Shown here piece after piece: positions 942-23,238 of a stretch of 40,106 nucleotides of DNA. The notes below the pieces were generated by a model. That model saw only the letters and a list, made by a program, of their open reading frames with translations. It searched no databases and was not told the DNA's origin. Each line of letters begins with the position of its first letter. The first letter of the stretch is position 1. The DNA comes from a virus. The DNA lies in the IMG/VR virus record IMGVR_UViG_3300037882_003356, positions 1-40,106 of that record. One strand, written 5' to 3'. The translations under genes and the position numbers were made by a program.

Positions 942-1817
942 TTAAGAAGGATGACTCACGTTTAAACGCGAAGTACAGACAGTTCCTTTCAAAGTACCGG
1001 CGACTGTAGGCTCAATCCGTTTGTGCTGAATTTTTATTGTGTGAGAGCCTGCGGAAAGAACTCCGTGCCATACGAGCGTTCCACCGACAGCGACCGCCTG
1101 ACCGTTTGCTTTCGTATGCCATTCTTTTTTTACGGTCCCATCCACCACCAGAGCGATCTGATGACCATACCCTCCGCCTCCATCAGCGAGGCCCTCAAAA
1201 CTTGCAAAAACTAAACCCTGTTTTCCAACGGTGAAAGTGATTGAAAGTGTCGTGTCGCCGTAACTCGAGCTGGCCGCCGCTTCATCTGAAGAGCTGGTAT
1301 CTTCGACGTCGGTGTATTCTTTGGGAGTAAGGACGACTGTCGTGATGTCAGCTTCGATTAGATTTGAATAAACTAAATCTGTCCCATTACTGCGAAGATA
1401 ATTTCCTGTTACCCCGAGAGGGTACCTTCCCCAGGTAGAAGCGCCGCGGAGAATAATGTCGCCGCGAACTTCGGAATCCGTGCCGAGCGCGTCAATCCAG
1501 AGCTTGCCGAGATTTGTGAGCCTCTGAATCCCTGCGTTCTCGTGCCTGTTAAAAAGCTCGGCGAAAGAGCCGTTCAGTTTGGAATAAAGAATAAGAGAAT
1601 TTGCGTAGGCCAGCGGGTCCGAGGCTTGTTCGAGAAGCGTCGCTTTTGAGTGATAGCCGATTTTGTCATCGGTTCCTTCAATCGCAAGAGCGTAATGGTC
1701 CGCGGCGAACCGCTCGCGCATGGCTCTTTTAAATTCCCTTATGTCGTCGTCTCCGAGAGCCAGGTCTCTTGAGCCGGCCGGTTTTGTTTCATCCCAAGTT
1801 TCAATATATGTAGGCAT
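942..1817 (-). CDS. Putative tail fibre/virion protein
   Basis: This is a 291-residue protein. Residues 1-45 (TYIETWDETKPAGSRDLALG, then DDDIREFKRAMRERF) match a short N-terminal pattern common in phage fibre or appendage proteins, where ETWDE, GS and LGDDDIR precede a helical segment. The C-terminal half (about 175-291) is beta-rich, with a G/T-rich jelly-roll look (VAVGGTLVWHGVLSAGSHTI), as in receptor-binding or carbohydrate-binding tips. There is a small serine/alanine linker near residues 174-186 (DTSSSDEAAASSS). The start at 1817 shares one base with the upstream gene stop, so the two are coupled. Fibre function is inferred from pattern and location. Confidence 0.6.
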   Translation of the reverse strand: MPTYIETWDETKPAGSRDLALGDDDIREFKRAMRERFAADHYALAIEGTDDKIGYHSKATLLEQASDPLAYANSLILYSKLNGSFAELFNRHENAGIQRLTNLGKLWIDALGTDSEVRGDIILRGASTWGRYPLGVTGNYLRSNGTDLVYSNLIEADITTVVLTPKEYTDVEDTSSSDEAAASSSYGDTTLSITFTVGKQGLVFASFEGLADGGGGYGHQIALVVDGTVKKEWHTKANGQAVAVGGTLVWHGVLSAGSHTIKIQHKRIEPTVAGTLKGTVCTSRLNVSHPS

Positions 1818-2500
1818 TAGAATCCTCCGTTAAATCGTACGATGTGGGGTGCGCTTTGAATGTCCCTGTTTAATTGCCTTAAAAGTTCAAGCCCTCCGGT
1901 CACGTATCCTTCGTTTCCAGAGAATCCGTACCGGTAAATACGCTGCCAGAGGTCGGCTTCCTGGATGAGCCCAATTCCTCCGAAAAGGCGAGTTAGGGCG
2001 CCGGCCTTGTTCGTCTCATCCCATGTCGGAAGAAAAATAGTTTCGTCAATCTCTGCGACCAAGAGTGTCGGAATCCCGCCGATATTTATTTCAAGCACAT
2101 ACTCTTTGTCAGGAATATCTGTCAGCAAAATGGAGTTTTTCCAGAGCGTATATGCGTGAGGTTTCCCGGTAGTAATCTCCACGGCGTTCGGGTTTGGCTC
2201 GAGATTGTCGTACTCATCCTTTGTCAAAAATTCCAAAGCATAGGACGAGCTTGAATTGTTCCCGGCAGTCGGGTCAAGAAGACGCACCGGATGAGCTACG
2301 CGCAGGACTGTGTCAGGGACCGGGTATTCTTCGCGCCCGATCACGACTGTCTTGTAAATCTGGTCCTGAAGTTTCCGAGGCGCGGTCGTGGCGCACATTT
2401 CGGAATAGGCTTCATTGATTGCCCGGACGATTTCCGTTTCTTTATCGTCTCTTTTGAAAATCTCAAGGACCGACGTTTTTAATTCGAGAAGTGTTGCCAT
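1817..2500 (-). CDS. Putative head-tail adaptor/connector protein
   Basis: This is a 227-residue protein beginning MATLLELKTSVLEIFKR, with a helical N-terminus (residues 1-45: RAINEAYSEMCATTAPRKLQ) followed by beta-rich sequence (YPVPDTVLRVAHPVRLL) and a C-terminal helical segment. A helical start containing INxAYxE, then a mixed beta region, is typical of podovirus head-completion or adaptor proteins that sit under the portal. It lies between the tailspike gene and two tail genes on the same strand. A short NNSSSSY run near residue 81 is the only trace here of the serine bias seen in neighbouring genes. Family assignment is tentative. Confidence 0.5.
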   Translation of the reverse strand: MATLLELKTSVLEIFKRDDKETEIVRAINEAYSEMCATTAPRKLQDQIYKTVVIGREEYPVPDTVLRVAHPVRLLDPTAGNNSSSSYALEFLTKDEYDNLEPNPNAVEITTGKPHAYTLWKNSILLTDIPDKEYVLEINIGGIPTLLVAEIDETIFLPTWDETNKAGALTRLFGGIGLIQEADLWQRIYRYGFSGNEGYVTGGLELLRQLNRDIQSAPHIVRFNGGF

Positions 2501-2509
2501 TTTTCCCCC

Positions 2510-5332
2510 TTAACCTGAGCTCGATGACGAGCTGCTGGATGATGAGCTCCTGGATGACGAGCTGCTCGATGAGCTGCTGCTCGAGCTGGAACTTGAGCTG
2601 GATGACGATTTACTCGAGCTGGATGAGCTTGACGACGAGCTGCTTGACGAGCTGCTTGAGCTCGAAGACCAGCTGGAACTCGAGCGCGAAGACGATGAGC
2701 TGGACGAGCGAACGCCTTTTTCTTTCCGCGCTTTCCAGTCCTTCGGGTTTGCGACACCGCCAGCGGAGCTGAACGAACTCGAACTGCTGGAGCTAGACGA
2801 AGAGCTTGAACTGGAAGAGCTGCTGCTCGAAGGAGCTCCCGGGTCTACGGATTGCGACGAACTCGATTTTGAAGATGAGCTCGAACTGCTGCTGGAACTG
2901 CTGGAAGAACTGGACGAGCTCACGGACCGGCTTGAGCTCGAAGAGCTTGAGCTCGAACTGATCGGCAGAAATGAAATGTAATACCCGCGCGTCTGACCGT
3001 ACAAAATAGAATCAAAATCAGTGTTGTTCGCAACGTACGCGGAGTTTGGATTCACGAGATTCGGATTTGCCACGGCGCCTGGATTCGACGCGTCGTATTT
3101 CGTGACATTCGTTTCCGTAACCATACCAGCGGTCGCTCCGTTGTCATAGGTATAGAATGAAGCGCTAATCCCCTGATTGATAAGAAGGATACTGTCCGTG
3201 AGTCCGAACTCAATTGTGCCACCATCAAGGTCAAGGACAATTTGACGGGAAGTGTTATTTACAAAAGAGCAGTTAAAGCAATTTAATTTCCCTCCCACCC
3301 AAAGGCCGGCAGCTGCTCCGTTGAAGGAACCTGTGGCGTAAGCGCCGAGGCACCGGGTCATAACCATCGCCCCCGAAGCCATGCCCCATATTCTGAAATT
3401 TCGCTTATTGTTCAGGGCGATACAGTCTGTCATCGCAATCCCTGAAACCCCCTTCAGGTCATAACCTCCGTCGGTGTTTCCGTACGCTTGGCACTTACTG
3501 AAAGTGATATTGAAGCAAAGCGCTTCAGTTTTAAATCCGTCTCCGTTCCAATAAGCCGGCGAAGGACCGGCGTCGTGATAATTGTTTTTTGAGATACATT
3601 CCACAAACTCCCCATCATGGCCCCTGGAGTTCGCTTCCCCGACGTCAAAGCCGACCATGAATAAATCCTTTGAAGGCTGAGCGTCCCACATCGCTTTGCC
3701 ACCGCCATCCGCGACGCAATTAAAAACGTGGAAATCATAGGCTCCGTTCCTGAACCGGATGAGCCGTTTTGTGTACCGCGTACCGTTCACATTTCGGATA
3801 ATAATGTCGTGAGACGCCAGCGTAGGATTAGGACAGGAAACAGCGTCACAATTAACGTCTCCGCGAATTTCGATTCCGTTTCTAAAATCAAAAAAGTTCA
3901 TGTCATTAAATCGAAGGTGAGAATTCCGCGCTGCAGTTGTTGTCGTGATGATGAATTGATAATTCCTGACGACAAGTCTTTCGATTCTGACGTAATTGAT
4001 GTCCGCCGAGAGAGTGATAAAATTCAGCCCGGAGGCTGGGGCCGTAACGACCCAATTCCCTGTAAAAACCGGGTATCCGGTTCCGCGGTCCACTCCGATA
4101 AATTGTTTGTACGCTAAATCGGATGAACCTCCGTCGACGATATTGAGGGTCAGATTTGAATAATCTCCGCTCCCAACGTAGCAAGCAGACCCTCCAATAT
4201 GATTTTCCCAGCCTCTCTGAAGTCCGTTTTTCCCGCCGATAATTTCGTTCGCCTGATAGGCGTTTTCCCAGGAAGACCCATCGCGCGTTCCGGTTCCGAC
4301 CGGCAAAACATACTTCGCGCCGGCCACCCCGGAAGAGGAAGACGAGCTGGAGCTCGAACTACTGCTCGACGATGAGGATGACGAGGAACTGCTTGAGGAC
4401 GAACTGCTCGACGAGCTTGAGGACGAACTGCTGCTGAGGCTGGACGAAGACGATGAACTACTGCTGCTCGAGCTGGATGAACTACTCAAAGACGACGACG
4501 ACGAGCTCGAAGAGGACGATGACAAGGACGAACTGGACGAGCTGCTGGAGCTCGATGATAAAGATGACGAGCTACTGCTCGAGCTGGATGAAGATGAACT
4601 GCTCGAGGAAAAGGACGAACTGCTGGACGAACTCGAGGAGGAACTATGGCTCGACGAACTGCTGCTGGATGAACTGCTTGAGCTCGAGGAGTATTCCGTC
4701 AGCGTATTTGAAAATTCAAACCAAGGATTATACGCAATTGTTTCGCTTGCATTTTCCGGGAGATCGGTCGCGTGATCGTCCCCTAAAACAAATTTAGAAT
4801 TATAAGTGCCTGCGTGATTTGCCTGACATCTGTCACCAATTTCGATGACAATTCTGTCTCCATCCTGGCAAACGACAGAACTCATCGCATTTGAATTCGG
4901 GAATCCTTTATTGACTTTGCTGGTGGACCCTGTGCCGACGAATTCGTGCTGCAACGTTGCGTTAAAATAAGAATAGAGAATTCCGCGCTCGACGGTTCCG
5001 TCGTTTGAAACGACCTTGAAGACCATCGCCGGCATATGATCGGCCAGGACGTTACTTTCACGGACACGAATTTGCCCTTTGATATTCCCGGAAATTGTCT
5101 GCGCGGCCAGAGGCGGTCCGATGAGTTGAAAAGCCATGTCGTCATGCGGAGGAGTTTCGGCCTGATCGGCGGTCTCAAAATCAGTCATCGCCGAACCTGC
5201 CTTTGTGGTACTCAAATTCCGACGGATGACAGGGAGGCCGGTATTATCGCGGTTATGTTCCCACCGTGAATCAATCGCTGGGCTGGTGGCGGTGTGGGCG
5301 GTAGCGGAATCGACGTAGTATCTGGTAGCCAT
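2510..5332 (-). CDS. Poly-serine tailspike with parallel beta-helix domain
   Basis: This is a 940-residue virion protein in blocks. Residues 1-214 form an N-terminal beta-rich domain (particle attachment or hub). Residues 215-333 are almost pure serine, broken by single H, F or L residues. Residues 334-790 are a right-handed beta-helix type domain with repeated short strands (DIIIRNVNG, FHVFNCVADG, NITFSKCQAYGN, MVMTRCLGAY). From about 790 to the end there are further serine tracts separated by SVDPGAPSSS and by a short island containing NPKDWKARKEKG. Beta-helix proteins in tails bind or cleave host polysaccharide; catalytic residues cannot be assigned here. It shares one base pair with the upstream gene stop/start at 5332. 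The serine tracts use mixed AGY and TCN codons, so this is not a simple microsatellite. Confidence 0.8.
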   Translation of the reverse strand: MATRYYVDSATAHTATSPAIDSRWEHNRDNTGLPVIRRNLSTTKAGSAMTDFETADQAETPPHDDMAFQLIGPPLAAQTISGNIKGQIRVRESNVLADHMPAMVFKVVSNDGTVERGILYSYFNATLQHEFVGTGSTSKVNKGFPNSNAMSSVVCQDGDRIVIEIGDRCQANHAGTYNSKFVLGDDHATDLPENASETIAYNPWFEFSNTLTEYSSSSSSSSSSSSSSHSSSSSSSSSSSFSSSSSSSSSSSSSSSSLSSSSSSSSSSSLSSSSSSSSSSSLSSSSSSSSSSSSSSSSLSSSSSSSSSSSSSSSSSSSSSSSSSSSSSSSSSSSGVAGAKYVLPVGTGTRDGSSWENAYQANEIIGGKNGLQRGWENHIGGSACYVGSGDYSNLTLNIVDGGSSDLAYKQFIGVDRGTGYPVFTGNWVVTAPASGLNFITLSADINYVRIERLVVRNYQFIITTTTAARNSHLRFNDMNFFDFRNGIEIRGDVNCDAVSCPNPTLASHDIIIRNVNGTRYTKRLIRFRNGAYDFHVFNCVADGGGKAMWDAQPSKDLFMVGFDVGEANSRGHDGEFVECISKNNYHDAGPSPAYWNGDGFKTEALCFNITFSKCQAYGNTDGGYDLKGVSGIAMTDCIALNNKRNFRIWGMASGAMVMTRCLGAYATGSFNGAAAGLWVGGKLNCFNCSFVNNTSRQIVLDLDGGTIEFGLTDSILLINQGISASFYTYDNGATAGMVTETNVTKYDASNPGAVANPNLVNPNSAYVANNTDFDSILYGQTRGYYISFLPISSSSSSSSSSRSVSSSSSSSSSSSSSSSSSKSSSSQSVDPGAPSSSSSSSSSSSSSSSSSSSFSSAGGVANPKDWKARKEKGVRSSSSSSSRSSSSWSSSSSSSSSSSSSSSSSSSKSSSSSSSSSSSSSSSSSSSRSSSSSSSSSSSG

Positions 5333-6777
5333 TAGATTGAATTATCCTCCGGACTTATTCCCGGCGACGTTGCCGGGGTTTCAAATCTTTTTTGCCATCC
5401 GTCGTCCGTCTCGCCAGATTCCCGGTGAATACCCGGAGAATCGTCAGGATTTTCAACCCTCTTTTGCCAGCCAGTGTCAACCTCATTAGCTGCGTCTTCC
5501 TGGAAAACATTTCCGCCGGTCACATTCTCCGGACGAGTTTGCCAGTTGTACGATTCCGAGCTACTGCTGAAGCTCGAGGAACTGGATGATGATACAGAAC
5601 TTGATGACTGAGAGCTAGAAGAAGATGAACTCATGGAACTTGAGCTCGAAGACGAAGAGGAAAATGAGCTCAGGCTGCTTGAGGACGAGGAACTACTGGA
5701 TGACGATGAACTGCTGGACGATGAAGAGGAGGAACTGCTCGAAAAACTGCTCGAGGAACTGGAAGAGCTACTGCTGCTCGAACTGGAGCTGGATGAAGAA
5801 CTGCTCAGGCTCGAAGACGATGACGACGATGACGAACTACTGGACGACGAGGAAAGCGAGCTCGAGGAACTTGAGCTGCTGGAACTACTGCTGGATGAAG
5901 AAGACGAGCTGCTTGAAAGACTGGAACTGCTTGAGCTGGACGAGGAACTCGAACTGCTCGAACTCGACGAAGAGGAAAGGCTGCTCGAAGACGACGACGA
6001 GCTGCTGGAAGAGGAAGAACTCAGCGAAGAACTGGACGAAGATGAGGAAGACGACGAAGAGCTCGAAGACGATTTTGAACTGCTGGAACTGGAAGACGAA
6101 CTGGAGCTACTGCTCGAACTACTCGATGAAGAGGAGGAGCTCGCTCCGGAAACTTCAGAGACCGCAAGACATATCGCCGCTGCGTCATCCCCGCTCTGTG
6201 TCCATCCAGCGCTTGCGTCCGTCGTCCCAATGGTATCGAATGTGTAGACACCACCGGTTTGATTCCCCAAATCCTGCTCGTCGCGTGCGGTCCAGTTTGT
6301 AAAAGGAGAAATGCTGCCAACAGCGTTTTGACCTGACCAGAATCCGATACAGTCAAAACAGGTTCTTCCGCCGTGGCTTAATGTGACCGTTGGATTTGAA
6401 GAGCTGCCAGCGTTGATTGTTGCGTCGACGTCAACGGTTTCCGTATCAGTATCCGCTGTGAGAGAAATAACCCCGGCGAATTTATTCGACCCTGTCACGC
6501 TGACCGTAGCGAGGAATGTCTGCGGTCCAGTTGGAATCCCGGAGCCGAGAAAATAGCAATACACGACGCCGTTTTCCCCGGTATTTATCAGAGGGGAACC
6601 GGATACCTCTGTCATGGTCGCAATACCGTAAGTGACTGTCACAACCTCGTCAGTTACCCCGGCGTTTTGAATGACGTACGCAATAATCGCTTTGGGAGTT
6701 CCGACCGGGGTATGAGTCCCGGTTAAATTCCCGGTGGTCTGAGCGATTGCTGTATAGGCGTCGAAGGCTACGGCCAT
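5332..6777 (-). CDS. Poly-serine virion protein
   Basis: This is a 481-residue protein. Residues 1-212 form a beta-sandwich-like domain (YVIQNAGVTDEVVTVTYGIA; a CFDCIGFWSG segment; an NWTARDEQ segment). Residues 213-407 are nearly all serine, interrupted at intervals by single L, K, F, M, Q or V residues. Residues 408-481 form a charged tail with three copies of a W-Q-x-R motif (YNWQTRPEN, GWQKRVEN, GWQKRFET). The ribosome site is weak (AGAGGT about 13 bases before ATG). It is followed directly by the beta-helix tailspike gene (TAATG-type junction). No homologous family is recognised; a fibre or stalk role is inferred from neighbours and architecture. Confidence 0.7.
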   Translation of the reverse strand: MAVAFDAYTAIAQTTGNLTGTHTPVGTPKAIIAYVIQNAGVTDEVVTVTYGIATMTEVSGSPLINTGENGVVYCYFLGSGIPTGPQTFLATVSVTGSNKFAGVISLTADTDTETVDVDATINAGSSSNPTVTLSHGGRTCFDCIGFWSGQNAVGSISPFTNWTARDEQDLGNQTGGVYTFDTIGTTDASAGWTQSGDDAAAICLAVSEVSGASSSSSSSSSSSSSSSSSSSSSSKSSSSSSSSSSSSSSSSLSSSSSSSSSSSSSSLSSSSSSSSSSSSSSSSSSSLSSSSSSSSSSSSSSSSSSSSLSSSSSSSSSSSSSSSLSSSSSSSSSSSSSSSSSSSSFSSSSSSSSSSSSSSSSSSSSSSSLSSFSSSSSSSSSMSSSSSSSQSSSSVSSSSSSSFSSSSESYNWQTRPENVTGGNVFQEDAANEVDTGWQKRVENPDDSPGIHRESGETDDGWQKRFETPATSPGISPEDNSI

Positions 6778-6785
6778 TTATTTAA

Positions 6786-6813
6786 TTGACCTCTGGGGTT
6801 TTTGGCCTATAAT
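6786..6813 (+). promoter_or_regulatory. Sigma70-like promoter for the HNH gene
   Basis: TTGACC at 6786-6791 and a perfect TATAAT at 6808-6813 are separated by 16 bases. The ATG of the HNH gene starts at 6820, seven bases after the hexamer, which is where transcription would begin. The transcript would therefore have essentially no leader, and no Shine-Dalgarno sequence is visible. Confidence 0.65.
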
Positions 6814-6819
6814 CGGGTT

Positions 6820-7206
6820 ATGGAAACCATGTGTTTCGTTTGCCGAAAAAAGTTTAAACGGAAAAAATCTGCCGTCAAAAAATCTAAGAGACCTTGTTGC
6901 TCCTGGCCTTGCTATCGAAAAATAATGAACCCCGGCGGAGATTCTTCCCGGAATTGGAGAAAAGGGGAATACGAAACTTCCGACGGATACATTCGCGTTT
7001 CTATCGGCGGTCATCATGGGAAGCTGAAACACCGCTTTGTCATGGAAAAAAATCTCGGGCGCCCACTTCAATCCTTCGAGATTGTTCATCACAAGAACGG
7101 AAATAAAACAGATAACCGCCCAAGTAATTTGGAAGTTATGACCATGTCTACCCACGTCCGCCACCACCGCCCACGATTCGGGACTGGGAAGAAAGCCAAG
7201 CCCTGA
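6820..7206 (+). CDS. HNH homing endonuclease
   Basis: A 128-residue protein on the strand opposite almost all other genes. Residues 1-35 hold a CFVC...CCSWPCY cysteine cluster that could bind zinc. A central GYIRVSIGGHHGKLKHRFVM segment, then a catalytic block (FEIVHHKNGNKTDNRPSNLE, ending MTMSTHVRHH), is the classic phage HNH pattern, with HH as metal and general-base residues and N as the third signature. Such genes are free-standing selfish elements that cut an intergenic site and spread by repair. A TTG at 6802 is in frame but lies upstream of the -10 box, so ATG 6820 is chosen. Its 3' end overlaps the 3' end of the converging glycosyltransferase gene by 59 bases. Confidence 0.85.
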   Translation: METMCFVCRKKFKRKKSAVKKSKRPCCSWPCYRKIMNPGGDSSRNWRKGEYETSDGYIRVSIGGHHGKLKHRFVMEKNLGRPLQSFEIVHHKNGNKTDNRPSNLEVMTMSTHVRHHRPRFGTGKKAKP

Positions 7207-7996
7207 CCGTTCCATCTTTGTAATTTTTCACATCAGCCGTTGAAATCGGTTGTTTCGTGAAATGCCCCGATTTTAATTCTTTCTCCAAAAGCATCACGTT
7301 TTTCCATGGCAACAATGACAATGCCAAGTGAAAAGGTCCAGATACGGCTCCCACAAAAAAATTAAGCCGCGAAATGATACTAATCATCGTCTCAAGACGC
7401 GCTGGAAAATCTCTCAAATGCTGATCGACGAAATCGAACTTTTTATTTTCAGGGTTATGGAATCCGTGACAAATATGTGTCTCGATGGGGATACAGCCGG
7501 CCTCGATAATTTCATTCCAGACTTTCCGCGCGACCTCTTCCGTTGGATTCGCGAGCCAGCCGACGGAGGTGTTATGGAAATGAACGCCCACGAGCGGTTT
7601 GACGACCAGAGGAGGATAATGCCCGGACGTCGGAACGATTCCGAGCTCTTTTTCGCATGAAATCTCAGCTTTCGTTTTTGTCGTGTCATCAAGGTTTTCT
7701 CCCGGGAAGTGACAGAGAAACACAAGATCGTACCCCATCGCTCCCACCGTTTCGCGCCAGTCACCCTCGAGTAAAATGACCTCTTCGGGTTCAAATAAAA
7801 CTTCCTCCTGAAGTCCGCTCGCCAAGCCAATATAAAATTTGACGGCTGGGTAATGCTTTTTCAGATATTCAAATGGAGCTCTGAGCATTACTTGGTCTCC
7901 TACTCCGTGCCACGAGACAACAACGCAGGTTTTTACGTCCGCCGTCAGATGGTCGACCAGCTTACCTTCGCCCTTTTCCGGGTCGATTATTTTCAT
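7148..7996 (-). CDS. GT9-like (heptosyltransferase-type) glycosyltransferase
   Basis: A 282-residue protein resembling ADP-heptose:LPS heptosyltransferases of family GT9. The N-terminal Rossmann half has VVSWHGVGDQVMLRAPFEYL, which matches the G-D-x(n)-P start of GT9 enzymes. The C-terminal half has LVGVHFHNTS and a late GAVSGPFHLALSLL, the GT9 pattern where a G/D-S/T-GP/HxA motif contacts the sugar nucleotide. It overlaps the upstream glycosyltransferase by ATGA. The last seven residues (GGGGGRG) are read from the antisense of the HNH gene and look like a replaced C-terminus. Probable role: transfer of a sugar to a glycan on the virion or host envelope. Confidence 0.7.
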   Translation of the reverse strand: MKIIDPEKGEGKLVDHLTADVKTCVVVSWHGVGDQVMLRAPFEYLKKHYPAVKFYIGLASGLQEEVLFEPEEVILLEGDWRETVGAMGYDLVFLCHFPGENLDDTTKTKAEISCEKELGIVPTSGHYPPLVVKPLVGVHFHNTSVGWLANPTEEVARKVWNEIIEAGCIPIETHICHGFHNPENKKFDFVDQHLRDFPARLETMISIISRLNFFVGAVSGPFHLALSLLPWKNVMLLEKELKSGHFTKQPISTADVKNYKDGTVRAWLSSQSRIVGGGGGRG

Positions 7997-8964
7997 ACAG
8001 TCACCCGCTCAAGGCTGTCCGGATGGCCGGTTTCTGTGTATGCCTTTTTCTCAATTTTTAATTTATAATCCAGAAAGTGTTTGAACCATGAATACAGGCA
8101 GTCCATGGCCCCGGCGGCTTGCTGGTCCGGTTTCTCGCTGGCGCCCAGGTAGCCTTCCGCGCAGCCGTGCCGGTTCAGAAGTTGCTGTCTCCGCCAGATA
8201 GCCTTGTAAAATTGGCCGTGGACGATGTAAATAGGCTCCCCTGACTCCGTCCATAGGAGACCGTCAGTTTGGACCGTGACGCGCGTGTAGGGCTTCAGGA
8301 GCTTCTCATTGGTGGCCACAAAGGAGTAATTCGGGAGGAGCAGAACCCGGTCAGAAAGTTTATAATGGAGTATTAAAAGGTTATAACTCTCCATGTCCGG
8401 AGCCTTGAAATTGGTCTCGGGCCAGCCCTCGGCAAACATCGTCCAGGATTGCTTCCATATTCTCCCCCAGGTATTCGCGTCTCCAAACATCGGAGCGCAG
8501 CAGACGTCTTTGTGATTCCAGACTGGCTTCTCGAGGAGTTGAGCGCCTTTTACCCGGTGGTGGTCGATTTCTCCATAAATGCGCTTCTGCTCGAGCGTGG
8601 CACCCAATAGGAGGCCGGTGGAGGCCGCAATCTCGAAGAACTGGTCAACCGGCCTGACGAAAAACATATCGGCGTCTAGGATACAGACAGCGTCGTAATG
8701 CTTGCCCCATTCCGCGGCGTACCAGTACCGCTTCCGACAGAGGATTTCGCTCTCTCCGCCGAACTCCCGGGCTTCTTTTTCAGGTACCGCATAATGTTCC
8801 ACGTGGAACGATAAATGATCGAATTGCCCTGTAAAATACTCAGGGAGTTCGTACCCGATCAGAATTACGTCGTGCCGGTTCCCCATCGCTTCCAGGGAAT
8901 TTAGAAGGGCGCAGAGCTCGGGAACGTACTTTTTGCAAGCTGAGACCACGAACGCGTATTTCAT
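7993..8964 (-). CDS. Glycosyltransferase, GT8-like, DxD
   Basis: A 323-residue GT-A fold type glycosyltransferase. It starts KYAFVVSACKKYVPELCALL, the nucleotide-sugar binding beginning of GT8-like enzymes, and has CILDADMFFVRPVD near residues 93-106, where DAD is the metal-binding DxD motif. A later YIVHGQFYKAIW segment provides the HG motif common near the C-terminal end of GT8 enzymes. It overlaps the upstream methyltransferase and the downstream GT9 gene by ATGA each. Acceptor unknown. In serine-rich-repeat adhesin systems GT8 enzymes extend O-glycans, but that parallel is my inference. Confidence 0.75.
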   Translation of the reverse strand: MKYAFVVSACKKYVPELCALLNSLEAMGNRHDVILIGYELPEYFTGQFDHLSFHVEHYAVPEKEAREFGGESEILCRKRYWYAAEWGKHYDAVCILDADMFFVRPVDQFFEIAASTGLLLGATLEQKRIYGEIDHHRVKGAQLLEKPVWNHKDVCCAPMFGDANTWGRIWKQSWTMFAEGWPETNFKAPDMESYNLLILHYKLSDRVLLLPNYSFVATNEKLLKPYTRVTVQTDGLLWTESGEPIYIVHGQFYKAIWRRQQLLNRHGCAEGYLGASEKPDQQAAGAMDCLYSWFKHFLDYKLKIEKKAYTETGHPDSLERVTV

Positions 8965-9686
8965 TGAATAAACCCGCCTTTCCTCGCAAGGTCCGTCTGG
9001 TCACCATCTGGCCAGAAGACCTTTTTCCGGTCGTAGCCTTCCATCTTCCGAAGCAGCCCGAAGCCGTAGTTGTTTAGAAACCGAATGTGTTCAAACGCCA
9101 GCATACTTTCACCATCTTTGTCGTGACCTCTCCGCACTATCACCTTTGGCCACAGTTTCTCCAGGAACGCATAAACGTCATGCAAGGCCAGATAGCCGTC
9201 TCCGTTGCCTTTCAGGAGCGGATAAACGAGCTCAATCTCACGCTCGACGTATTCGTTCTGGTGGAGGCCGTCGATGAAAATGAGGTCGAAAAATTCTGGA
9301 GGCCAGCCCTTTTGATTCTCGAGAAAATCCACGGACCCTTTCGGGTGATGGATAAACGTCGCCGGAAGTCCTGCCGCGTCAAATTCCTTCTGGATTTCAC
9401 TCTTGTCGTCTATGTCGATTGCGTAAAAACGACCGTTCGCGGCAAAGCGGGAATTGTTTTCCTTTACCGCCCAGGCCATAAATCCGGATGACCACGCCTG
9501 AGCTACGCCAATCTCCAAAACATTGTGCGCTCCGATTGCCCGGGCAATCGTGTAAAGCATTGGACCGTAAAAAGGCGTCGTCGAGTTTATCGAATCAGCT
9601 GGATTCAGCCGGCAGAGCCCCTCATACATCGGAGCCGGGAACTCTTTGAAGTACCCGAGATTGAAGTCGGCGTCTTCGCGCTTCAT
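8961..9686 (-). CDS. SAM-dependent methyltransferase, class I
   Basis: A 241-residue protein with motif I HNVLEIGVAQAWSSGFM (about 57-73), an acidic end of strand 2 in FYAIDIDD, and motif IV/post-I DLIFIDGLHQNEYVEREI with LALHDVY after it. This is the Methyltransf_24-type arrangement (LIFIDGxHxYExVxxDIEL), common in glycan methylation and in phage or bacterial polysaccharide clusters. The start is ATG 9686, in an ATGA overlap with the upstream gene and with GGAGTGGAAAGG just ahead; a GTG at 9695 is an alternative. Substrate unknown; a sugar hydroxyl is likely by context. Confidence 0.7.
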   Translation of the reverse strand: MKREDADFNLGYFKEFPAPMYEGLCRLNPADSINSTTPFYGPMLYTIARAIGAHNVLEIGVAQAWSSGFMAWAVKENNSRFAANGRFYAIDIDDKSEIQKEFDAAGLPATFIHHPKGSVDFLENQKGWPPEFFDLIFIDGLHQNEYVEREIELVYPLLKGNGDGYLALHDVYAFLEKLWPKVIVRRGHDKDGESMLAFEHIRFLNNYGFGLLRKMEGYDRKKVFWPDGDQTDLARKGGFIQ

Positions 9687-10405
9687 CCTTTCCACTCCAA
9701 AACCTGAATACCGTAACCGTCCACTCGTTCGTTGACATATTCCCGGATTATCCGGTGCCGGTCACCGGCGGATTCTACTTCCTTGACAATTTCAATGGCC
9801 CGGGCTGGACCAGGAAGCGTTGAATCGTGGAACGCAATCATGCAGCCGCTGTTCAGGTATTCCCGCCAGCGCATATACTCACCGAGCGCGTGTTCAAGGC
9901 CGTGCTCTGTGTCAATCAGAAGGAAATCTACCTTCTCGTCATAAGGGACTGGCGTCTTGATTGAATGAGCCACGCGGATATTTACCGGGCAATCCGCCTC
10001 ACCCTCTTTTGGAAGCATGACAAAATCTTCCGTTTCCGGGACCGGCACGAAGACGTATCCGTTTTCGGCCATGCCTTCGATGAACCCATCCCAATGTTTC
10101 AAATCCCACGAGCTCAAAACTCCGCCGTGCCGTAAGACGTACTGAAGAAAAATCCGGGTAGAGCAGCCGAAGTTTCGGCCAAGCTCGACGATCTTGCGAG
10201 GTCGCCGTTTCTCGAGCAAATCATAAAGCAGCGCGATTTCATTGACCGACATTCCGGTCTCTTTGAATCCGGTACAACGCGCGAAGTGAACGGCGTCTTC
10301 CTTCGTTGACTTGGACCAGTCAAAGTCCTTGTAAAAGGAAATGTGCCGGCGGTCTTCATAGGAAAGGTTTGCGTGAGGGATGGTCACTGTTTCGATTGTA
10401 TTCAT
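9683..10405 (-). CDS. SAM-dependent methyltransferase-like (Methyltransf_24-type)
   Basis: A 240-residue protein. Motif I is IVELGRNFGCSTRIFLQYVL and the substrate-side acidic motif is VDFLLIDTEHGLEHALGEYMRW, followed by GCMIAFHDST. The usual E-x-G-x-x-x-G pattern appears as ELGRNFGCST. ATG 10405 overlaps the upstream stop as ATGA. It is the second of three consecutive Methyltransf_24-like genes, which are too diverged from each other to be a recent duplication. The LLIDxEHxxE...HD arrangement is the cephalosporin-hydroxylase/rhamnosyl O-methyltransferase style, so sugar O-methylation is a sensible guess. Confidence 0.65.
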   Translation of the reverse strand: MNTIETVTIPHANLSYEDRRHISFYKDFDWSKSTKEDAVHFARCTGFKETGMSVNEIALLYDLLEKRRPRKIVELGRNFGCSTRIFLQYVLRHGGVLSSWDLKHWDGFIEGMAENGYVFVPVPETEDFVMLPKEGEADCPVNIRVAHSIKTPVPYDEKVDFLLIDTEHGLEHALGEYMRWREYLNSGCMIAFHDSTLPGPARAIEIVKEVESAGDRHRIIREYVNERVDGYGIQVLEWKG

Positions 10406-11079
10406 TTTTTCACCGCGAAGCCGACGCCTTTGCCGGCCATGTTTTTGAAGAATGAGTATTGGTCCTCGTGAGATTGCTGGAAGGCTTCCCAAACGTCAAT
10501 CAGGCCGCACTCTCCCGGGGCTGTTGAAATGTCGTCGAATACGATGAATCCACCGGGCTCGCAGAGTTTGTCCGCGTTCTCGAGGTCCATCTTTGCCGCT
10601 GGCTTGGCGTGGTCTCCGTCGACCAGAATGTAATCAAAGAGAGCGCCTTCTTCGTAGAGCTGAGGAAGGATTTCAAGAGAACTTCCTTTTCTCAGGTCCA
10701 CTTTTTCCGTCGGCAAATTTAAATAATTCAGGCTCCGCTTGACAAGCGCAGGGCTCGTGAATCCGTCCGCGTAAATGTCGATCGAGACAATGCGCTCAAT
10801 AGCTGAATGATCGCGGTAGGCGGAAAGCAGCTGGCAAAGGCTGATTCCTGTCCGGGTTCCGATTTCAAGAATACGCTTCGGCGGATGACAGGCTGCGAGT
10901 TCCCACATGAAAATATAAATGTCGTAAAACTCCTCCCCGGAACGCTCCAGGTGGCCCTGATAAGCCTCGTAATAGGTATCGCCAGGATTCAGGCGTTTCA
11001 GGACACGCATGACATTCATAATCGCGTTTATTTTGAGTTTGCGTTCCTGGTCATTCATCAAGCCTTGATAGGATTCCAT
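10402..11079 (-). CDS. SAM-dependent O-methyltransferase-like
   Basis: A 225-residue protein starting at ATG 11079 with AAAGGA about ten bases upstream. Motif I RILEIGTRTGISLCQLLSAY, motif II RIVSIDIYADG, motif III/IV FDYILVDGDHAKPAAKMDLE and FIVFDDIS form a complete class I SAM-binding fold of the Methyltransf_24 type. It overlaps the upstream GT9 gene by 22 bases and the downstream methyltransferase by ATGA. Its longer upstream reading frame has no ribosome site and runs antisense-like into the neighbour, so the shorter start is preferred. Target not identifiable. Confidence 0.7.
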   Translation of the reverse strand: MESYQGLMNDQERKLKINAIMNVMRVLKRLNPGDTYYEAYQGHLERSGEEFYDIYIFMWELAACHPPKRILEIGTRTGISLCQLLSAYRDHSAIERIVSIDIYADGFTSPALVKRSLNYLNLPTEKVDLRKGSSLEILPQLYEEGALFDYILVDGDHAKPAAKMDLENADKLCEPGGFIVFDDISTAPGECGLIDVWEAFQQSHEDQYSFFKNMAGKGVGFAVKK

Positions 11080-12002
11080 CGGACACTTTCCTTTCGTTTG
11101 AGAACGCCGCCAATGTAGTAGAGGCGAATTGCGCGGACGATGTCTTCCGGGCGAATCATTTCCATACAGAGCGGGTTTTGGTCCTTCGTTAAATTCAAAC
11201 AATGGTCATCTTTCCCGGTATTTTTCTTCTTCGATTTCCAGCAGCCGTCGTACATCGCACATTCAATCGCACCGTTTACGGCAAGGAAGCGGTGATCGGG
11301 CGTGAACTGCCAGCGAATCGGCTCCCGGCCTCCTGAGACCACGACACAGGGCTTGCTGAGGGCCGCCATGACGACCATCTGGAGCGAGACAGCATTGACG
11401 CTGCCTTCTGCGTGATGGCTCAGCCTGAAGAGTTCCCGGAGGTTTGTCTTCCCGCGCATATCAATTACCCCGAGCAGAGCTGGATGATTGTGCTCGAGCT
11501 GGCCGACCTGGACAAATTGGATTTCGTCTTGAAGCTCGTCGATGACTTCCTGATAACGGTGGTAATACTTCAGCGTGTAATCGTCCTTAACGCCGGCATT
11601 GATAATCCAATAAGGTCCATCGAATCCGTACTCGCGCGTGACAGGGTTCGGCCAGAGCAACTCCGCGGCGGATAAAAAAATATCCGGGCGAAGCGAAGTA
11701 TGCGGAATCGGTCGCCCCAGCCGGTTCGCAAGTTCGAGCGTGTGAGCTGTCACAAAAGGCCGGCCACTCCATCCCGAATTATGAATATCCGGATAATCCA
11801 GCCGAATCCGTTCTGCTTCTTTGTCAGCGTCTTCGATTTTCGTAATGTAAGGGCTGTTCTCGAAGATTTGTTCCGCGCCGGTCGGAACGCGAATATCGGT
11901 CAGGTACTCGCCCGGGTAGGCTTTGTGAAGATCGCGTATAGCGCACGTGGAGACCAGAATATCCCCGGGCGCGAGCGGGTTCTCGAAGATAATTTTCTTC
12001 AC
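11058..12002 (-). CDS. GT9-like glycosyltransferase
   Basis: A 314-residue protein beginning at a GTG (12002) inside a GTGA overlap with the upstream methyltransferase stop. The N-terminus KKIIFENPLAPGDILVSTCA and IRDLHKAYPGEYLTDIRV is typical GT9 (P-x-x-x-G-D, then A-I-R-D-L-x-x-x-x-P). The C-terminal half has ALSKPCVVVSGGREPIRWQF and a cysteine-rich tail (CAMYDGCW, DDHCLNL, LCMEMI) seen in a subset of phage and bacterial GT9-like proteins where it may bind metal. An extended ATG at 12170 would overlap the methyltransferase coding region antisense-frame and is rejected. Confidence 0.7.
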   Translation of the reverse strand: MKKIIFENPLAPGDILVSTCAIRDLHKAYPGEYLTDIRVPTGAEQIFENSPYITKIEDADKEAERIRLDYPDIHNSGWSGRPFVTAHTLELANRLGRPIPHTSLRPDIFLSAAELLWPNPVTREYGFDGPYWIINAGVKDDYTLKYYHRYQEVIDELQDEIQFVQVGQLEHNHPALLGVIDMRGKTNLRELFRLSHHAEGSVNAVSLQMVVMAALSKPCVVVSGGREPIRWQFTPDHRFLAVNGAIECAMYDGCWKSKKKNTGKDDHCLNLTKDQNPLCMEMIRPEDIVRAIRLYYIGGVLKRKESVRWNPIKA

Positions 12003-12529
12003 GCTGCACGCCGCTTGAAAAGGAACGAACCGATCATCGAGCGTGGCGGACACTCCGGGTTTCCGGATTTCACGAGCTCGAATCCGAAAAGGTCCATCAC
12101 GGCGCAGAGGTAATCTTCCTGAAAATGATGAATGTGCTCTCCCGGTTTGAAATGTTTGTACTCTTTCCACGGAACGTCCGCTGGTTTAATCGGGACCGTG
12201 AGCCCTATCCAGTTCGTCATATCAAAAATTTTTCTCATGCTTTCAAGGTCTGGAATGTGTTCGAGGACATCCCACAAAGTCACGAGGTCGTATTTGTACG
12301 CGCGAACGCCAGTCTGAGGAACTTTCATCAGGTCGAAGGTGTCTACCGCCACATCAGCCGGCGCGAAGGCTTTGAAGAATCCGCAGCCTGAGCCGTAATC
12401 GAGGACCGTCTTGGCGCCGGCCTGAGCAACAAAAGCCCATCGAGCGTCGCAAATTTGCTTCGCGGTGGGCGAATACATTCTCAGCATATTGTAAAAATAA
12501 TCGGCGTCGTACTGGAAAGATTGCGTCAT
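11999..12529 (-). CDS. SAM-dependent methyltransferase, small class I
   Basis: A 176-residue protein with KTVLDYGSGCGFFKAF (motif I, about 38-53), VAVDTFDLM (motif II) and YDLVTLWDVLEHIPDLESM (motif IV with the D-V-L-E-H-I signature), the Methyltransf_11/23 type that acts on small molecules or sugars. A later HFKPGEHIHHFQEDYL fits the same family. AAAGGA precedes ATG 12529. It is first of a seven-gene coupled enzyme cassette; the only feature upstream is a hairpin at 12554-12575 that separates the cassette from the capsid genes. Confidence 0.75.
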   Translation of the reverse strand: MTQSFQYDADYFYNMLRMYSPTAKQICDARWAFVAQAGAKTVLDYGSGCGFFKAFAPADVAVDTFDLMKVPQTGVRAYKYDLVTLWDVLEHIPDLESMRKIFDMTNWIGLTVPIKPADVPWKEYKHFKPGEHIHHFQEDYLCAVMDLFGFELVKSGNPECPPRSMIGSFLFKRRAA

Positions 12530-12553
12530 TTCAGCGTTCCTTTCGTTGAAACG

Positions 12554-12575
12554 CCCAGGGGCCGAAGCCCCCAGG
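12554..12575 (-). terminator. Strong UUCG hairpin between capsid and glycosylation modules
   Basis: Read on the minus strand, a nine-base-pair arm (12575-12567 with 12562-12554, two G-T pairs) closes a C(TTCG)G tetraloop, one of the most stable RNA loops. It is followed by GCGTTTCAAC rather than a clear U-run, so it may be a weak terminator, a processing site or a 3' stabilizer rather than a full intrinsic terminator. Confidence 0.55.
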
Positions 12576-12589
12576 CAGTTTCGGTTTTG

Positions 12590-12925
12590 TTAATGTCCGT
12601 CGTACCCGATGGCGATTTTGAACTTCCCGGTCGTGTTATCCGAGAGCTGCGGGTTCAGAAAAAGCCCTCGTTCGGCTGTCTTTCCAACTGACGGCAGGGC
12701 GGCGGGAAAACTTCCAGCAGCGGTCGGAATCACAAAGTCAAAAAGTTTCGGCTTTGTGTTGTCGTTCGTGACCGCGTCATAAATTACTACGCGGTCGCCG
12801 ATCGTCTGACCGTGCCAGGAGATATTCACCGAATAAAGATTGCCGCCGTTGGGAAACGTGGCAACAAGCGCGTCCTGTGAATCTGTGTTGACGAACGATT
12901 TAACTCCTTGAGGTCTGCCAGCCAT
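12590..12925 (-). CDS. Small beta-rich virion protein (decoration candidate)
   Basis: A 111-residue protein with a compact beta-sandwich look (LYSVNISWHGQTIGDRVVIY, then DFVIPTAAGSFPAAL). There is no signal peptide or membrane segment. GGGGGTGACATATG provides the ribosome site. It sits immediately after the poly-serine protein and before the enzyme cassette. Small proteins of this type in capsid clusters are often head decoration or fibre-base proteins; the role here is inferred from location only. Confidence 0.5.
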   Translation of the reverse strand: MAGRPQGVKSFVNTDSQDALVATFPNGGNLYSVNISWHGQTIGDRVVIYDAVTNDNTKPKLFDFVIPTAAGSFPAALPSVGKTAERGLFLNPQLSDNTTGKFKIAIGYDGH

Positions 12926-12937
12926 ATGTCACCCCCC

Positions 12938-13747
12938 TTATGCGCTCTGCGAGCTGCTGGACGACGACGAGCTGGAAGAACTGCTCGAAGACGAACTGCT
13001 GCTGCTGGAGCTTGAGCTCGACGAAGAAAGAGACGAGCTGGATGAGGAGGAACTCGAACTCGAAAGGCTCGAGCTTGAAGAGCTGGAAGAACTCGAAGAG
13101 CTGGAAGAACTGGACGAGCTCGAAAGCGAAGAACTGCTCGAACTCGAACTGGAGGAGCTGGAGCTCGAAGAGCTCGAAGACGATGAAAGACTCGAAGAGG
13201 AACTGGAAGAACTCGAGCTTTTCGCGACGTCTTCCGGAACCCAAAGACTTGAATAATTCGTTCCGGTCACTCCGCTGTCAGCGTCCAGAACTTTGAGCGC
13301 CGCGGACCAGTTTTCCATGAACGTATCGAAAAACTCAGCCATATCCGCCGGATACCAGCCGAGCCGCTTAACGCGAGAGCCGGCTTCACCCGGGGCGAAA
13401 ACGGCTGTGGTCGCGATTTTCAGGTCAGTAAACGCAGTCGTACCGTTTACCGTTCCATCCGCGGCCAGTTTGTCCAGGATTCCATTTAGCGCGAGGAAAA
13501 GCAATCTCACCCGGTCGTAAAAGTGGACGAAATTGAATCCTATCGGGTCAACAACATCGGAGTAATCCGTCCCGATGTCTTCCGTAATCGCCCAAAGGCT
13601 GGCGTAATTGGTATCCGCGACGCCACCGTCGAGGTCCAGCTTCGCGCAAACGCCGTTGATTGATTTAACGCACTGTTCGAGGGCGTACACAAAATCGACC
13701 TGATACTGCCCACGGTCTTGCAGGGATTTAAAACGCCGAAATGCCAT
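12938..13747 (-). CDS. Virion protein with poly-serine C-terminus and internal repeats
   Basis: A 269-residue protein. Residues 1-176 form a helical/mixed domain with a repeated pattern: KLDLDGGVADTNYASLW (about 36-52), LAADGTVNGTTAFTDL (about 94-109) and VLDADSGVTGTNYSSLW (about 153-169). Residues 177-266 are nearly pure serine with occasional L and end QSA. AGGAG lies before ATG 13747. No homologous family is recognised. Repeats ending just before the serine tract suggest a trimeric or stacked head followed by a flexible extension. It lies between the capsid and the glycosyl/methyl cassette. Confidence 0.65.
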   Translation of the reverse strand: MAFRRFKSLQDRGQYQVDFVYALEQCVKSINGVCAKLDLDGGVADTNYASLWAITEDIGTDYSDVVDPIGFNFVHFYDRVRLLFLALNGILDKLAADGTVNGTTAFTDLKIATTAVFAPGEAGSRVKRLGWYPADMAEFFDTFMENWSAALKVLDADSGVTGTNYSSLWVPEDVAKSSSSSSSSSSLSSSSSSSSSSSSSSSSSSSSLSSSSSSSSSSSSSSSSSSSLSSSSSSSSSSSLSSSSSSSSSSSSSSSSSSSSSSSSSSQSA

Positions 13748-14223: not shown

Positions 14224-15246
14224 TTACGCCGTGGAAGCAGCGGCTGCCGCGGTCGAAATCGTGATGATTCCGTAGTCCTCAGAATTGAAGACCGGCTTCT
14301 GGACGCCAAAAATACGGCCAGCACAAATAGCCCACTTATTCCCGAAGTCAAAAGACTTCTCGACCCATTCCAGGTCTTGGCCTTCTGCGAAAACACCGGC
14401 TTGCTGACCCATCAGAATCGCGCGAGCTGTGGCAGCGGAGGCAGCGCCATCCGTTCCGGTATACATGAGCTCGTGCTGGTGGATAATGCAGCCGTTGTAA
14501 ACGCCGAGAGCGCCCGAAAGAATCGGGTTATCAGAACCGCGGACGTTTGCGTCACGCTGAGCCTGATTCCAGACCGGGTCATTCCGGAGGTCGGTGGCTT
14601 GGTACGGATGGACGAGGATGACGTACATCTCCTCGCCTTTGAACGCCTTATCCGCCATGCGAATCGGGCGGATTTTGGGGCTGGCGAGAAGCGCCTTCTG
14701 CTTCGCCGCGTCAATCACTTTCGTGTCAAACTTCATGCCGGCAGTAAGACCGCTTTCAGCTGATTGACCACCAGCGAAAATTTTACGAGCGCTCGACGCT
14801 GCCGTCGGCGTATTCGCAAAAGTCTTATCTGTCTGACCGGTGAGTTTGTAAATAATCTCGCGGTCAATACGCTCAGCCCACCAGATTTTCAGCTTCTCTT
14901 TCGCGTCAGTCCGCAAGTTGTACGCGGCCTTCCGTTCGTCCATTTTGCCTTTTAAGCGGACCGGCTCGCGGAGCTGGTCGATGTACATCGAAAAGCTGAA
15001 CGAGAGAATTTCTTCCTCGTTGCCTTCCGCTTCGGCGTCTCCGACGATTCCGTCGCCGCTTAATTTCGTCGTAAGCGGGAATGTAATTTTATCTCCCGGG
15101 CCTTTCTTCAAATCGCGAACGATCTGAATCGGATTGTTCGGACCTTCGCCCATGAACTTGTCAAAAAACAAGATCGTGGGAACGTCCGCAAACAAATCCT
15201 TGTACCAGAGCTGGGCCTGATTGCCAGCAATCGTAGCGGTATTCAT
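14224..15246 (-). CDS. Major capsid protein, N4-gp56 family
   Basis: A 340-residue major head protein of the N4-gp56/DUF4043-like family: an N-terminal arm ending WYKDLFADVPTILFFDKFMG, then GPGDKITFPLTTKLSGDGIV and the helical SFSMYIDQLREPVRLKGKM, followed by a long helix (LRTDAKEKLKIWWAERIDRE) and a characteristic EMYVILVHPYQATDLRNDP. The C-terminal region GKQ-type 'KWAICAGRIFGVQKPVFNSE' is also typical. Length is within the usual range of the family. AGGGGG lies ahead of ATG 15246. It sits between scaffold and decoration genes, as expected for a capsid. Confidence 0.92.
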   Translation of the reverse strand: MNTATIAGNQAQLWYKDLFADVPTILFFDKFMGEGPNNPIQIVRDLKKGPGDKITFPLTTKLSGDGIVGDAEAEGNEEEILSFSFSMYIDQLREPVRLKGKMDERKAAYNLRTDAKEKLKIWWAERIDREIIYKLTGQTDKTFANTPTAASSARKIFAGGQSAESGLTAGMKFDTKVIDAAKQKALLASPKIRPIRMADKAFKGEEMYVILVHPYQATDLRNDPVWNQAQRDANVRGSDNPILSGALGVYNGCIIHQHELMYTGTDGAASAATARAILMGQQAGVFAEGQDLEWVEKSFDFGNKWAICAGRIFGVQKPVFNSEDYGIITISTAAAAASTA

Positions 15247-22519: not shown

Positions 22520-22708
22520 TCAGCGGTTCGCGAAGAAATGCCAGACGAGAAACGCGAAGAGGAGCCAGAAGCCAGCCTTGAACCCGAACGAAATCCAGTC
22601 GATAGGCTCCGGGTCAGGCGGGTCACAACACTCCATAGCGAGCTCAGGGGTCGCGTGAATCGTGAGACATTCCAGGCATTGGTGCCTTTCGTCTTTCGAT
22701 TCATTCAT
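22520..22708 (-). CDS. Small membrane-anchored zinc-finger-like protein
   Basis: A 62-residue protein with a C-L-E-C pair and a CC pair in residues 11-28 (HQCLECLTIHATPELAMECC) and a C-terminal membrane segment (ISFGFKAGFWLLFAFLVWHF). It overlaps the pentapeptide gene by ATGA. A soluble metal-binding head tethered to the inner membrane is suggested. Function unknown. Confidence 0.6.
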   Translation of the reverse strand: MNESKDERHQCLECLTIHATPELAMECCDPPDPEPIDWISFGFKAGFWLLFAFLVWHFFANR

Positions 22709-23238
22709 TTTATCTCCTTGAGTTCAAACGCTTGTGACAGATTTTTCACCCACTCGTCAATCCATTCCACCGCGAATTTTGAGAATTGACTTTTTTCGGG
22801 AGTGTCTCCTGTTTTAATTCCCATAAAAAAACGCTCAATCGGGCGGTCAGAGTTCGGTTTTAAATTTGGAACCTGATCGTACGAACAATGTTTCACGTTC
22901 GCAATCGTTCCAACCAGACAAGCGCATTCTCCTTCGTACGTCGAACCGTTCACGCGACCTTCCACAAGCGCTTGACGCAAACCAGAGGCTTCTGCTGGGG
23001 CGCAACAAAGCACGGCCCAAAGATCGTATTTAATCGGCTCCAGGTCCGCGCCTTTGAGGTCCGCGCCTTTGAGGTACGCGCCTGTGAGGTCCGCGCCTGT
23101 GAGATACGCGCCTTTGAGGTACGCGCCTGTGAGGTCCGCGCCTGTGCTAACAGCGGCCTCCAGCGCCAGCTTTAAAGACCCAGCTTCGCACTCAAATAAA
23201 ATTTTTCCTGACCAGAAACTTTTTATTTCAAATTTCAT
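22705..23238 (-). CDS. Pentapeptide-repeat protein
   Basis: A 177-residue protein. Residues 31-66 contain seven tandem A-(D/Y)-L-(T/K)-G pentapeptides that would form a short right-handed quadrilateral beta-helix. The flanks (FEIKSFWSGKILFECEAGSL; the C-terminal EWIDEWVKNLSQAFELKEIK) are not repeats. Long pentapeptide proteins mimic DNA and block gyrase, but seven repeats (under two helical turns) is short for that. At DNA level the repeat is a 15-base tandem array. It is coupled to the genes on both sides by ATGA. Confidence 0.8.
   Translation of the reverse strand: MKFEIKSFWSGKILFECEAGSLKLALEAAVSTGADLTGAYLKGAYLTGADLTGAYLKGADLKGADLEPIKYDLWAVLCCAPAEASGLRQALVEGRVNGSTYEGECACLVGTIANVKHCSYDQVPNLKPNSDRPIERFFMGIKTGDTPEKSQFSKFAVEWIDEWVKNLSQAFELKEIK
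23042..23146 (-). repeat. Seven-copy 15-bp tandem repeat
   Basis: Seven near-identical 15-base units (one pentapeptide each, of type AGGTCCGCGCCTTTG on the plus strand) run head to tail without interruption. Variation is confined to two or three positions per unit, which suggests recent expansion by slippage or recombination. Unit loss or gain keeps the frame. Confidence 0.85.

Follow-up and report, generated by a model that had tools for sequence, protein, structure and literature searches.

Poly-Ser genes and a transferase cassette in the structural module

The window, i.e., the whole stretch of DNA analysed here, is an IMG/VR virus record of 40,106 bases that carries a podovirus-like structural module on its minus strand, comprising a terminase, a P22-like portal, a capsid and an SU10-type adaptor (Pfam, PHROG). 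Three poly-Ser ORFs lie between the capsid and adaptor genes, and a cassette of seven overlapping genes (7148–12529; four methyltransferases (MTs) and three glycosyltransferase (GT)-like proteins) is located between the first and the second of them (Table 1). A preliminary description of this DNA had proposed that poly-Ser genes bracket the cassette, which was confirmed except that an HNH gene intervenes before the second poly-Ser gene; the tract lengths it gave (90, 195 and 119-plus residues) agree with those of the ORFs.

Table 1 Features of the locus and the evidence for their assignment.
Feature	Position	Strand	Evidence or remark
Major capsid protein (context)	14224–15246	-	PF13252 3.3e-59; phrog_334 2.7e-84
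Poly-Ser protein A, "neck", 269 aa	12938–13747	-	90-residue C-terminal Ser tail
Small conserved protein in the interval between neck gene and cassette	12590–12925	-	Same place in relatives
Methyltransferase	11999–12529	-	PF13489 1.2e-13
GT9A, GT9-fold glycosyltransferase, candidate protein Ser O-glycosyltransferase	11058–12002	-	Profile, model
Methyltransf_24 methyltransferase	10402–11061	-	PF13578 2.7e-18; likely start 11061, 4-nt overlap with GT9A
Methyltransf_24 methyltransferase	9683–10405	-	PF13578 2.7e-10; likely start 10405, 4-nt overlap
Methyltransf_24 methyltransferase	8961–9695	-	PF13578 2.8e-13
GT8-like glycosyltransferase	7993–8964	-	DxD and HG invariant
Putative second GT9-like protein (GT9B)	7148–7996	-	Conserved WHGxGD motif; weak evidence
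HNH gene	6802–7206	Opposite to cassette	Between cassette and second poly-Ser gene
Poly-Ser protein B, fibre-like, 481 aa	5332–6777	-	Ser tract of about 200 residues
Poly-Ser protein C, fibre-like, 940 aa	2510–5332	-	120-residue Ser tract amid folded regions
SU10-type adaptor protein (context)	1817–2500	-	PF24175 3.7e-10

Protein A, which we call "neck" after the place of its gene behind the capsid gene, consists of an all-helical N-terminal domain (13220–13747; predicted helical, model pLDDT 76) and a free C-terminal Ser tail. This combination is kept in six relatives (alignment A6), and a BFVD search with the domain returned nothing at E ≤ 0.001. The N-domain of protein B resembles a phage minor tail protein (PHROG 2.4e-6) and its C-terminus carries W..R.E repeats, while protein C has more Ser tracts closer to its C-terminus (39, 24 and 65 residues). 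The neck tract, being the end of the protein, does not join two folded domains; protein C does have an inner tract. That all three ORFs encode virion proteins, as had been proposed, is supported by their position and by the minor-tail match, rather than by proteomics.

All six Ser codons are intermixed within the tracts. With a free third base, AG-codons should end in a purine about as often as TC-codons, which did so in 177 of 313 cases; however, 191 of the 193 AG-codons ended in a pyrimidine (Ser) and 2 in a purine (Arg), so that the frame under protein-level selection is the Ser frame. The other phages tested gave the same outcome. This codon test refuted the explanation that the tracts are an artefact of low-complexity DNA, mis-assembly or the antisense strand of an E/D/L-rich protein, and the probability left for it is negligible. 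Antisense E/D/L-rich ORFs do exist (e.g., 5633–6247, 204 aa), but they are by-products of poly-Ser DNA; moreover, conserved N-terminal domains continue in frame into the Ser tract in seven phages, and identical tracts occur in records of different metagenome sets, both of which also speak against an artefact. Besides a few other residues, R, L, K and F interrupt the tracts in the window and in its two capsid relatives (G001, G002; see below), but P, T, G, A and C never do, even though the latter five represent about half of the expected one-step changes. Breaks spaced 11–12 residues apart were counted 26 times in these three genomes, compared to 8.2 ± 2.7 expected by chance. In other lineages, the interrupting residues differ (C/R, H, E).

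Within the cassette, five gene junctions overlap by 4 nt (7993–7996, 8961–8964, 10402–10405, 11058–11061 and 11999–12002) and one by 13 nt (9683–9695); the 4-nt overlaps indicate translational coupling, bearing out the coupling suggested earlier. The four methyltransferases initially assigned all scored over the Pfam gathering cut-off (PF13578 for three, PF13489 for one). Among the three proposed glycosyltransferases, the GT9 assignment of GT9A is solid, the GT8-like one is tentative and the product of 7148–7996 is only weakly GT9-like. Since the window copies of these three proteins had no Pfam match, their identification required relatives. The GT8-like protein aligned with WaaJ (hhalign E 7e-4), and its homologue in record L067 reached 15.2 bits for Pfam GT8, under the cut-off of 24.3. 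It shares 57–58% identity with its homologues in G001 and G002, although a single-sequence search found no relatives, as the peptide patterns were too strict. Searching single proteins against PDB sequences returned nothing useful, and no GT4-type family, which a GtfA/GtfB pair would show, was among the Pfam matches of the cassette. The window cassette contains no sugar-nucleotide synthesis gene, so that the donor would be host-derived.

Conservation of the bracket and kinship of GT9A with TibC

The two capsid relatives (62–63% capsid identity) share the gene order of the window, namely capsid, poly-Ser neck, small protein, MT–GT9 fusion, Methyltransf_24 genes, GT8-like, GT9-like, poly-Ser fibre and adaptor. 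The poly-Ser bracket is thus kept in relatives whose capsid and GT8-like proteins are 57–63% identical. Equivalents of the small protein occupy the same place in five records (L002, L004, L009, L075, L060), the MT domain corresponding to 11999–12529 is fused to the GT9A domain in L004, L009, L075, L121 and L130, and L004 and L075 show an overlap between the last GT gene and the poly-Ser gene. Further viral records were found using a DNA pattern for mixed-codon poly-Ser, which retrieved members of the lineage (L075, L060, L121) together with other phages. In unrelated phages, poly-Ser also adjoins GT/MT genes and the sugar genes vary (aminotransferase-, epimerase- and cupin-like). L067 encodes a kinase resembling HldE (3e-55) and an epimerase resembling HldD (3.6e-60) and, judged by these matches, carries part of ADP-heptose synthesis.

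The GT9A homologue in L004 scored 27.2 bits for PF01075 (cut-off 22). In HMMER searches, the GT9A profile (A7) matched WaaF first (6.4e-9) and then TibC (5e-5); the TibC alignment passes through the iron-finger cysteines, while those of WaaF and WaaC end before them. The model (pLDDT 83.5) has a GT9-like GT-B catalytic fold and superimposed on TibC with a Z of 20.3 and an rmsd of 2.9–3.2 over 262–266 residues, compared to Z values of 20–25 for other GT9 structures. Nine residues are invariant in 53 diverse GT9A sequences (G13, D14, K145, R226, E227, C248, C254, W255 and C279) and C268 is nearly so; each of the four cysteines is present in 52–55 of 56 GT9A sequences, the remainder being gaps or truncations and one Ser. 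By structural range, not by residue-level alignment, G13–D14 lie near TibC 109–110 (catalytic D110). TibC heptosylates Ser but not Thr residues, and its iron finger (C339, 342, 358 and 370) is required for assembly and activity (PMC4358343). We regard the four-Cys motif of GT9A as a candidate iron finger with putative iron binding; the closest relative of GT9A found here among solved protein-modifying enzymes is TibC. The N-terminal beta-barrel of TibC is missing in GT9A, as the alignment begins at TibC residue 96, and relatives have a methyltransferase domain in its place; for want of the barrel, we term GT9A TibC-like, not a TibC family member. The matches of GT9A to WaaF and further LPS enzymes of the GT9 family equal or exceed its match to TibC, so that its acceptor may also be a lipid or a glycan. 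Scanning genome contigs for GT9A gave three matches, too few to name a host.

Co-occurrence of GT9A and Ser tracts in viral records

In the reverse test, viral contigs were scanned with the GT9A alignment alone, which yielded 80 loci, 50 of them with a Ser tract. After dereplication, a Ser tract was present in the fetched locus of 38 of 55 GT9A groups, often within about 1.3 kb, and in 5 of 120 viral loci taken at random (Fisher's p about 8e-20, indicative only since the groups are not phylogenetically independent and the control loci were shorter on average, with 1.03 Mb in 120 vs 1.28 Mb in 80). The control loci were drawn by 14-mer (a 17-mer version yielded five loci), and two pairs among the five control hits resemble duplicates. 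The remaining 17 groups include four whose records contain abundant Ser tracts outside the locus, which raises the count to 42 of 55 for whole records; 11 groups had no Ser tract in the record, contigs of 74–75 kb among them. The forward test recovered GT9A in 11 of 50 poly-Ser records vs none of 50 random records; many of the 39 poly-Ser records without GT9A are fragments. Poly-Ser is thus predicted far better by GT9A (38/55 groups, reverse test) than GT9A is by poly-Ser (11/50 records, forward test), and absences weigh little either way because many records are fragmentary.

Methyltransf_24 as a lone marker was present in 12 of 50 poly-Ser records vs 3 of 46 tract-less pattern hits, two of which proved Ser-rich. 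A shift test on the distance of Methyltransf_24 genes to the nearest tract gave no signal (most p values 0.4–0.7); it had little power, given short records and cassettes that span several kb. The preliminary description had called for a co-occurrence search across viral genomes and named poly-Ser proteins without a cassette, and the reverse, as evidence against its proposal. The GT9A search returned Ser tracts in most virus groups, and the 11 groups above are exceptions on the cassette side. On the poly-Ser side, two siphovirus contigs with poly-Ser (G089, 47 kb; G098, 38 kb) had no recognised GT or sugar-type MT among the scanned ORFs of at least 130 aa, which partly supports that objection.

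A proposed virion-glycosylation system and its alternatives

In our view, the phage probably uses the cassette to glycosylate its own virions, with the Ser tracts of the three flanking proteins as substrates. The conserved bracket, its recurrence, the retrieval of tracts by GT9A and the kinship to TibC back the earlier idea that the cassette serves the poly-Ser proteins, and virion glycosylation of poly-Ser is favoured as the best fit to layout, coupling, recurrence and enzyme kinship. The initial sugar, which may be a heptose, would be attached to serines of the tracts by GT9A or a partner, the GT8-like and the second GT9-like protein would lengthen the sugar chain and the four methyltransferases would cap it with O-methyl groups. 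The outcome would be hydrophilic methylated-glycan brushes on the head or tail, which may act as a shield, a spacer or a binding surface. Chances seem about even that many viral lineages share such a "phage mucin" system, in which Ser tails would be O-glycosylated by a TibC-like iron-finger GT9. The "phage mucin" reading pictures near-homopolymeric Ser tails on virion proteins, whose sugars would be elaborated by glycan and methyl-transfer genes that change quickly.

Gram-positive SRR adhesins are cell-wall proteins with short Ser-rich repeats. The analogy drawn with them initially holds insofar as a long Ser-rich protein lies beside a GT cluster; it is loose in that the cassette has no GtfA/GtfB-type (GT4) enzyme, the protein is viral and not a cell-wall one, and the phage tracts are near-homopolymers instead of short repeats. 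The autotransporter heptosyltransferase (BAHT) system (TibC and AAH, with the substrates TibA and AIDA-I) is the better parallel, similar in its GT9-type fold, the four-Cys motif near the C-terminus and an enzyme gene close to the gene of a Ser-containing surface protein. In contrast to BAHT enzymes, GT9A lacks the N-terminal beta-barrel and is fused to methyltransferase or further GT domains in several phages, the presumed substrate tracts are almost pure Ser and methyltransferases accompany the enzyme. Virion glycosylation in mycobacteriophages has reportedly been described by Freeman et al. in 2023 (cited in PMC12619734 and PMC11256854). As in phage virion glycosylation systems, the phage-encoded GT genes lie in or near the structural module. 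According to PMC12619734, mycobacteriophage glycans sit at the C-termini of capsid and tail-tube subunits, similar to the C-terminal decoration of virion proteins by phage-encoded GTs that we propose here; no poly-Ser tracts, however, are mentioned in these two sources. That the neck tract forms the free C-terminus of its protein was counted in favour of the proposal, alongside these C-terminal glycans.

The main rival, which we consider unlikely, is that the cassette modifies host LPS or another surface glycan (receptor masking, superinfection exclusion) and that the poly-Ser tracts are unmodified spacers; the location of the cassette in the late operon would then be merely incidental. Families GT8 and GT9 are typical of LPS-core enzymes, GT9A resembles WaaF/WaaC and the GT8-like protein resembles WaaJ; poly-Ser siphoviruses that lack a cassette also exist. 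Polyserine linkers are also known from polysaccharide-degrading bacteria, where those of Saccharophagus and Teredinibacter enzymes join folded domains. They share the long Ser runs, but the phage neck tract ends its protein as a tail, is no interdomain linker and has GT/MT genes coupled to it. Against a host-glycan role, chance can hardly account for GT9A and Ser tracts being linked across dozens of virus groups, the translationally coupled cassette genes turn over inside a retained poly-Ser bracket, and the four-Cys motif is common to GT9A and TibC but is not reached by the WaaF and WaaC alignments.

An alternative explanation, clearly less probable still, is that the glycans are placed on another virion protein (the capsid or folded fibre domains), poly-Ser being an adaptation that these phages acquired separately. 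The mycobacteriophage GTs, which act on the C-termini of capsid and tail-tube proteins (PMC12619734, PMC11256854), and the 11 GT9A groups without visible Ser tracts are consistent with this, but it leaves the linkage of GT9A to poly-Ser and the Ser specificity of TibC unexplained. We regard a modification of phage DNA bases or small metabolites as very improbable: phage GTs do hypermodify DNA (cited in PMC12619734), and PHROG labels the MTs "DNA methyltransferase", weakly (1.9e-4 or worse), but the MTs fall into Methyltransf_24/23, the parts scanned contained no recognised base-modification gene, the cassette is within the structural module and GT9A is of the heptosyltransferase kind.

The four-Cys motif of GT9A, its match to TibC and the association of GT9A with poly-Ser are new here, and no paper linking polyserine to phage virions was found in the literature searched. 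Few cases of phage virion glycosylation are known, and no general rule for its recognition is known. If the proposed glycosylation of poly-Ser is true, the pair of a poly-Ser tail and a four-Cys GT9, present in dozens of virus groups, would make virion glycosylation predictable from genomes and provide a compact enzyme–substrate set for tests in a laboratory strain, while Ser O-glycosylation by GT9 enzymes would extend from bacterial adhesins to viruses. The recurrence of poly-Ser with sugar-building enzymes in many unrelated viruses suggests a brush-like sugar coat on the particles of some phages.

Interruptions of the serine tracts and the HNH gene

In the window and in four fetched viral loci (L004, L008, L009, L010), R, L, K and F break up the serine tracts but P, T, G, A and C never do, and a spacing of 11-12 residues is enriched among the interruptions. 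A short tandem motif, W..R.E..., lies C-terminal to the serine tract in the window and in the fibre C-termini of L008 and L010, and is kept among relatives. Judging from gene order, the window's HNH gene looks like an insertion, because the GT9-like gene passes straight into the poly-serine gene, with nothing intervening, in two loci of the window's relatives (L004 and L075).

Features of the window and of other phage loci
Feature	Position	Strand	Context
Tandem motif	window 5332-5560		C-terminal to serine tract
HNH endonuclease gene	window 6802-7206	+ (opposite to cassette)	between cassette and second poly-serine gene
15-base tandem repeat, 7 copies	window 23042-23146		within ORF 22705-23238
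1961-aa ORF with LPD38 domain	window 32233-38118	-	
HldE-like heptose kinase and HldD-like ADP-heptose epimerase genes	L067:2405-4610		adjoining GT9A (TibC-like glycosyltransferase) and poly-serine gene
Serine-rich ORF, >2,100 aa	L138:1-6368		another phage; adjoining glycosyltransferase/methyltransferase genes
Serine-rich ORF, 1,585 aa	L139:1821-6578		another phage; adjoining glycosyltransferase/methyltransferase genes

Poly-serine proteins in siphovirus-like contigs

Two siphovirus-like contigs encode several poly-serine proteins (L133-L137; G089, 47 kb, and G098, 38 kb); no recognised glycosyltransferase was found there among the scanned ORFs of at least 130 aa, and the sole methyltransferase was a D12 DNA methyltransferase.

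Remaining window ORFs and a possible host

The repeat-containing ORF perhaps encodes a pentapeptide-repeat protein, and at the place matching the LPD38 ORF the capsid relatives G002 and G001 carry ORFs of 2346-2539 aa. The contig of L389, with GT9A and Methyltransf_24, radical-SAM-like and epimerase-like genes as in G079, was assigned to a MAG bin named Candidatus Aceula meridiana, which hints weakly at the host.
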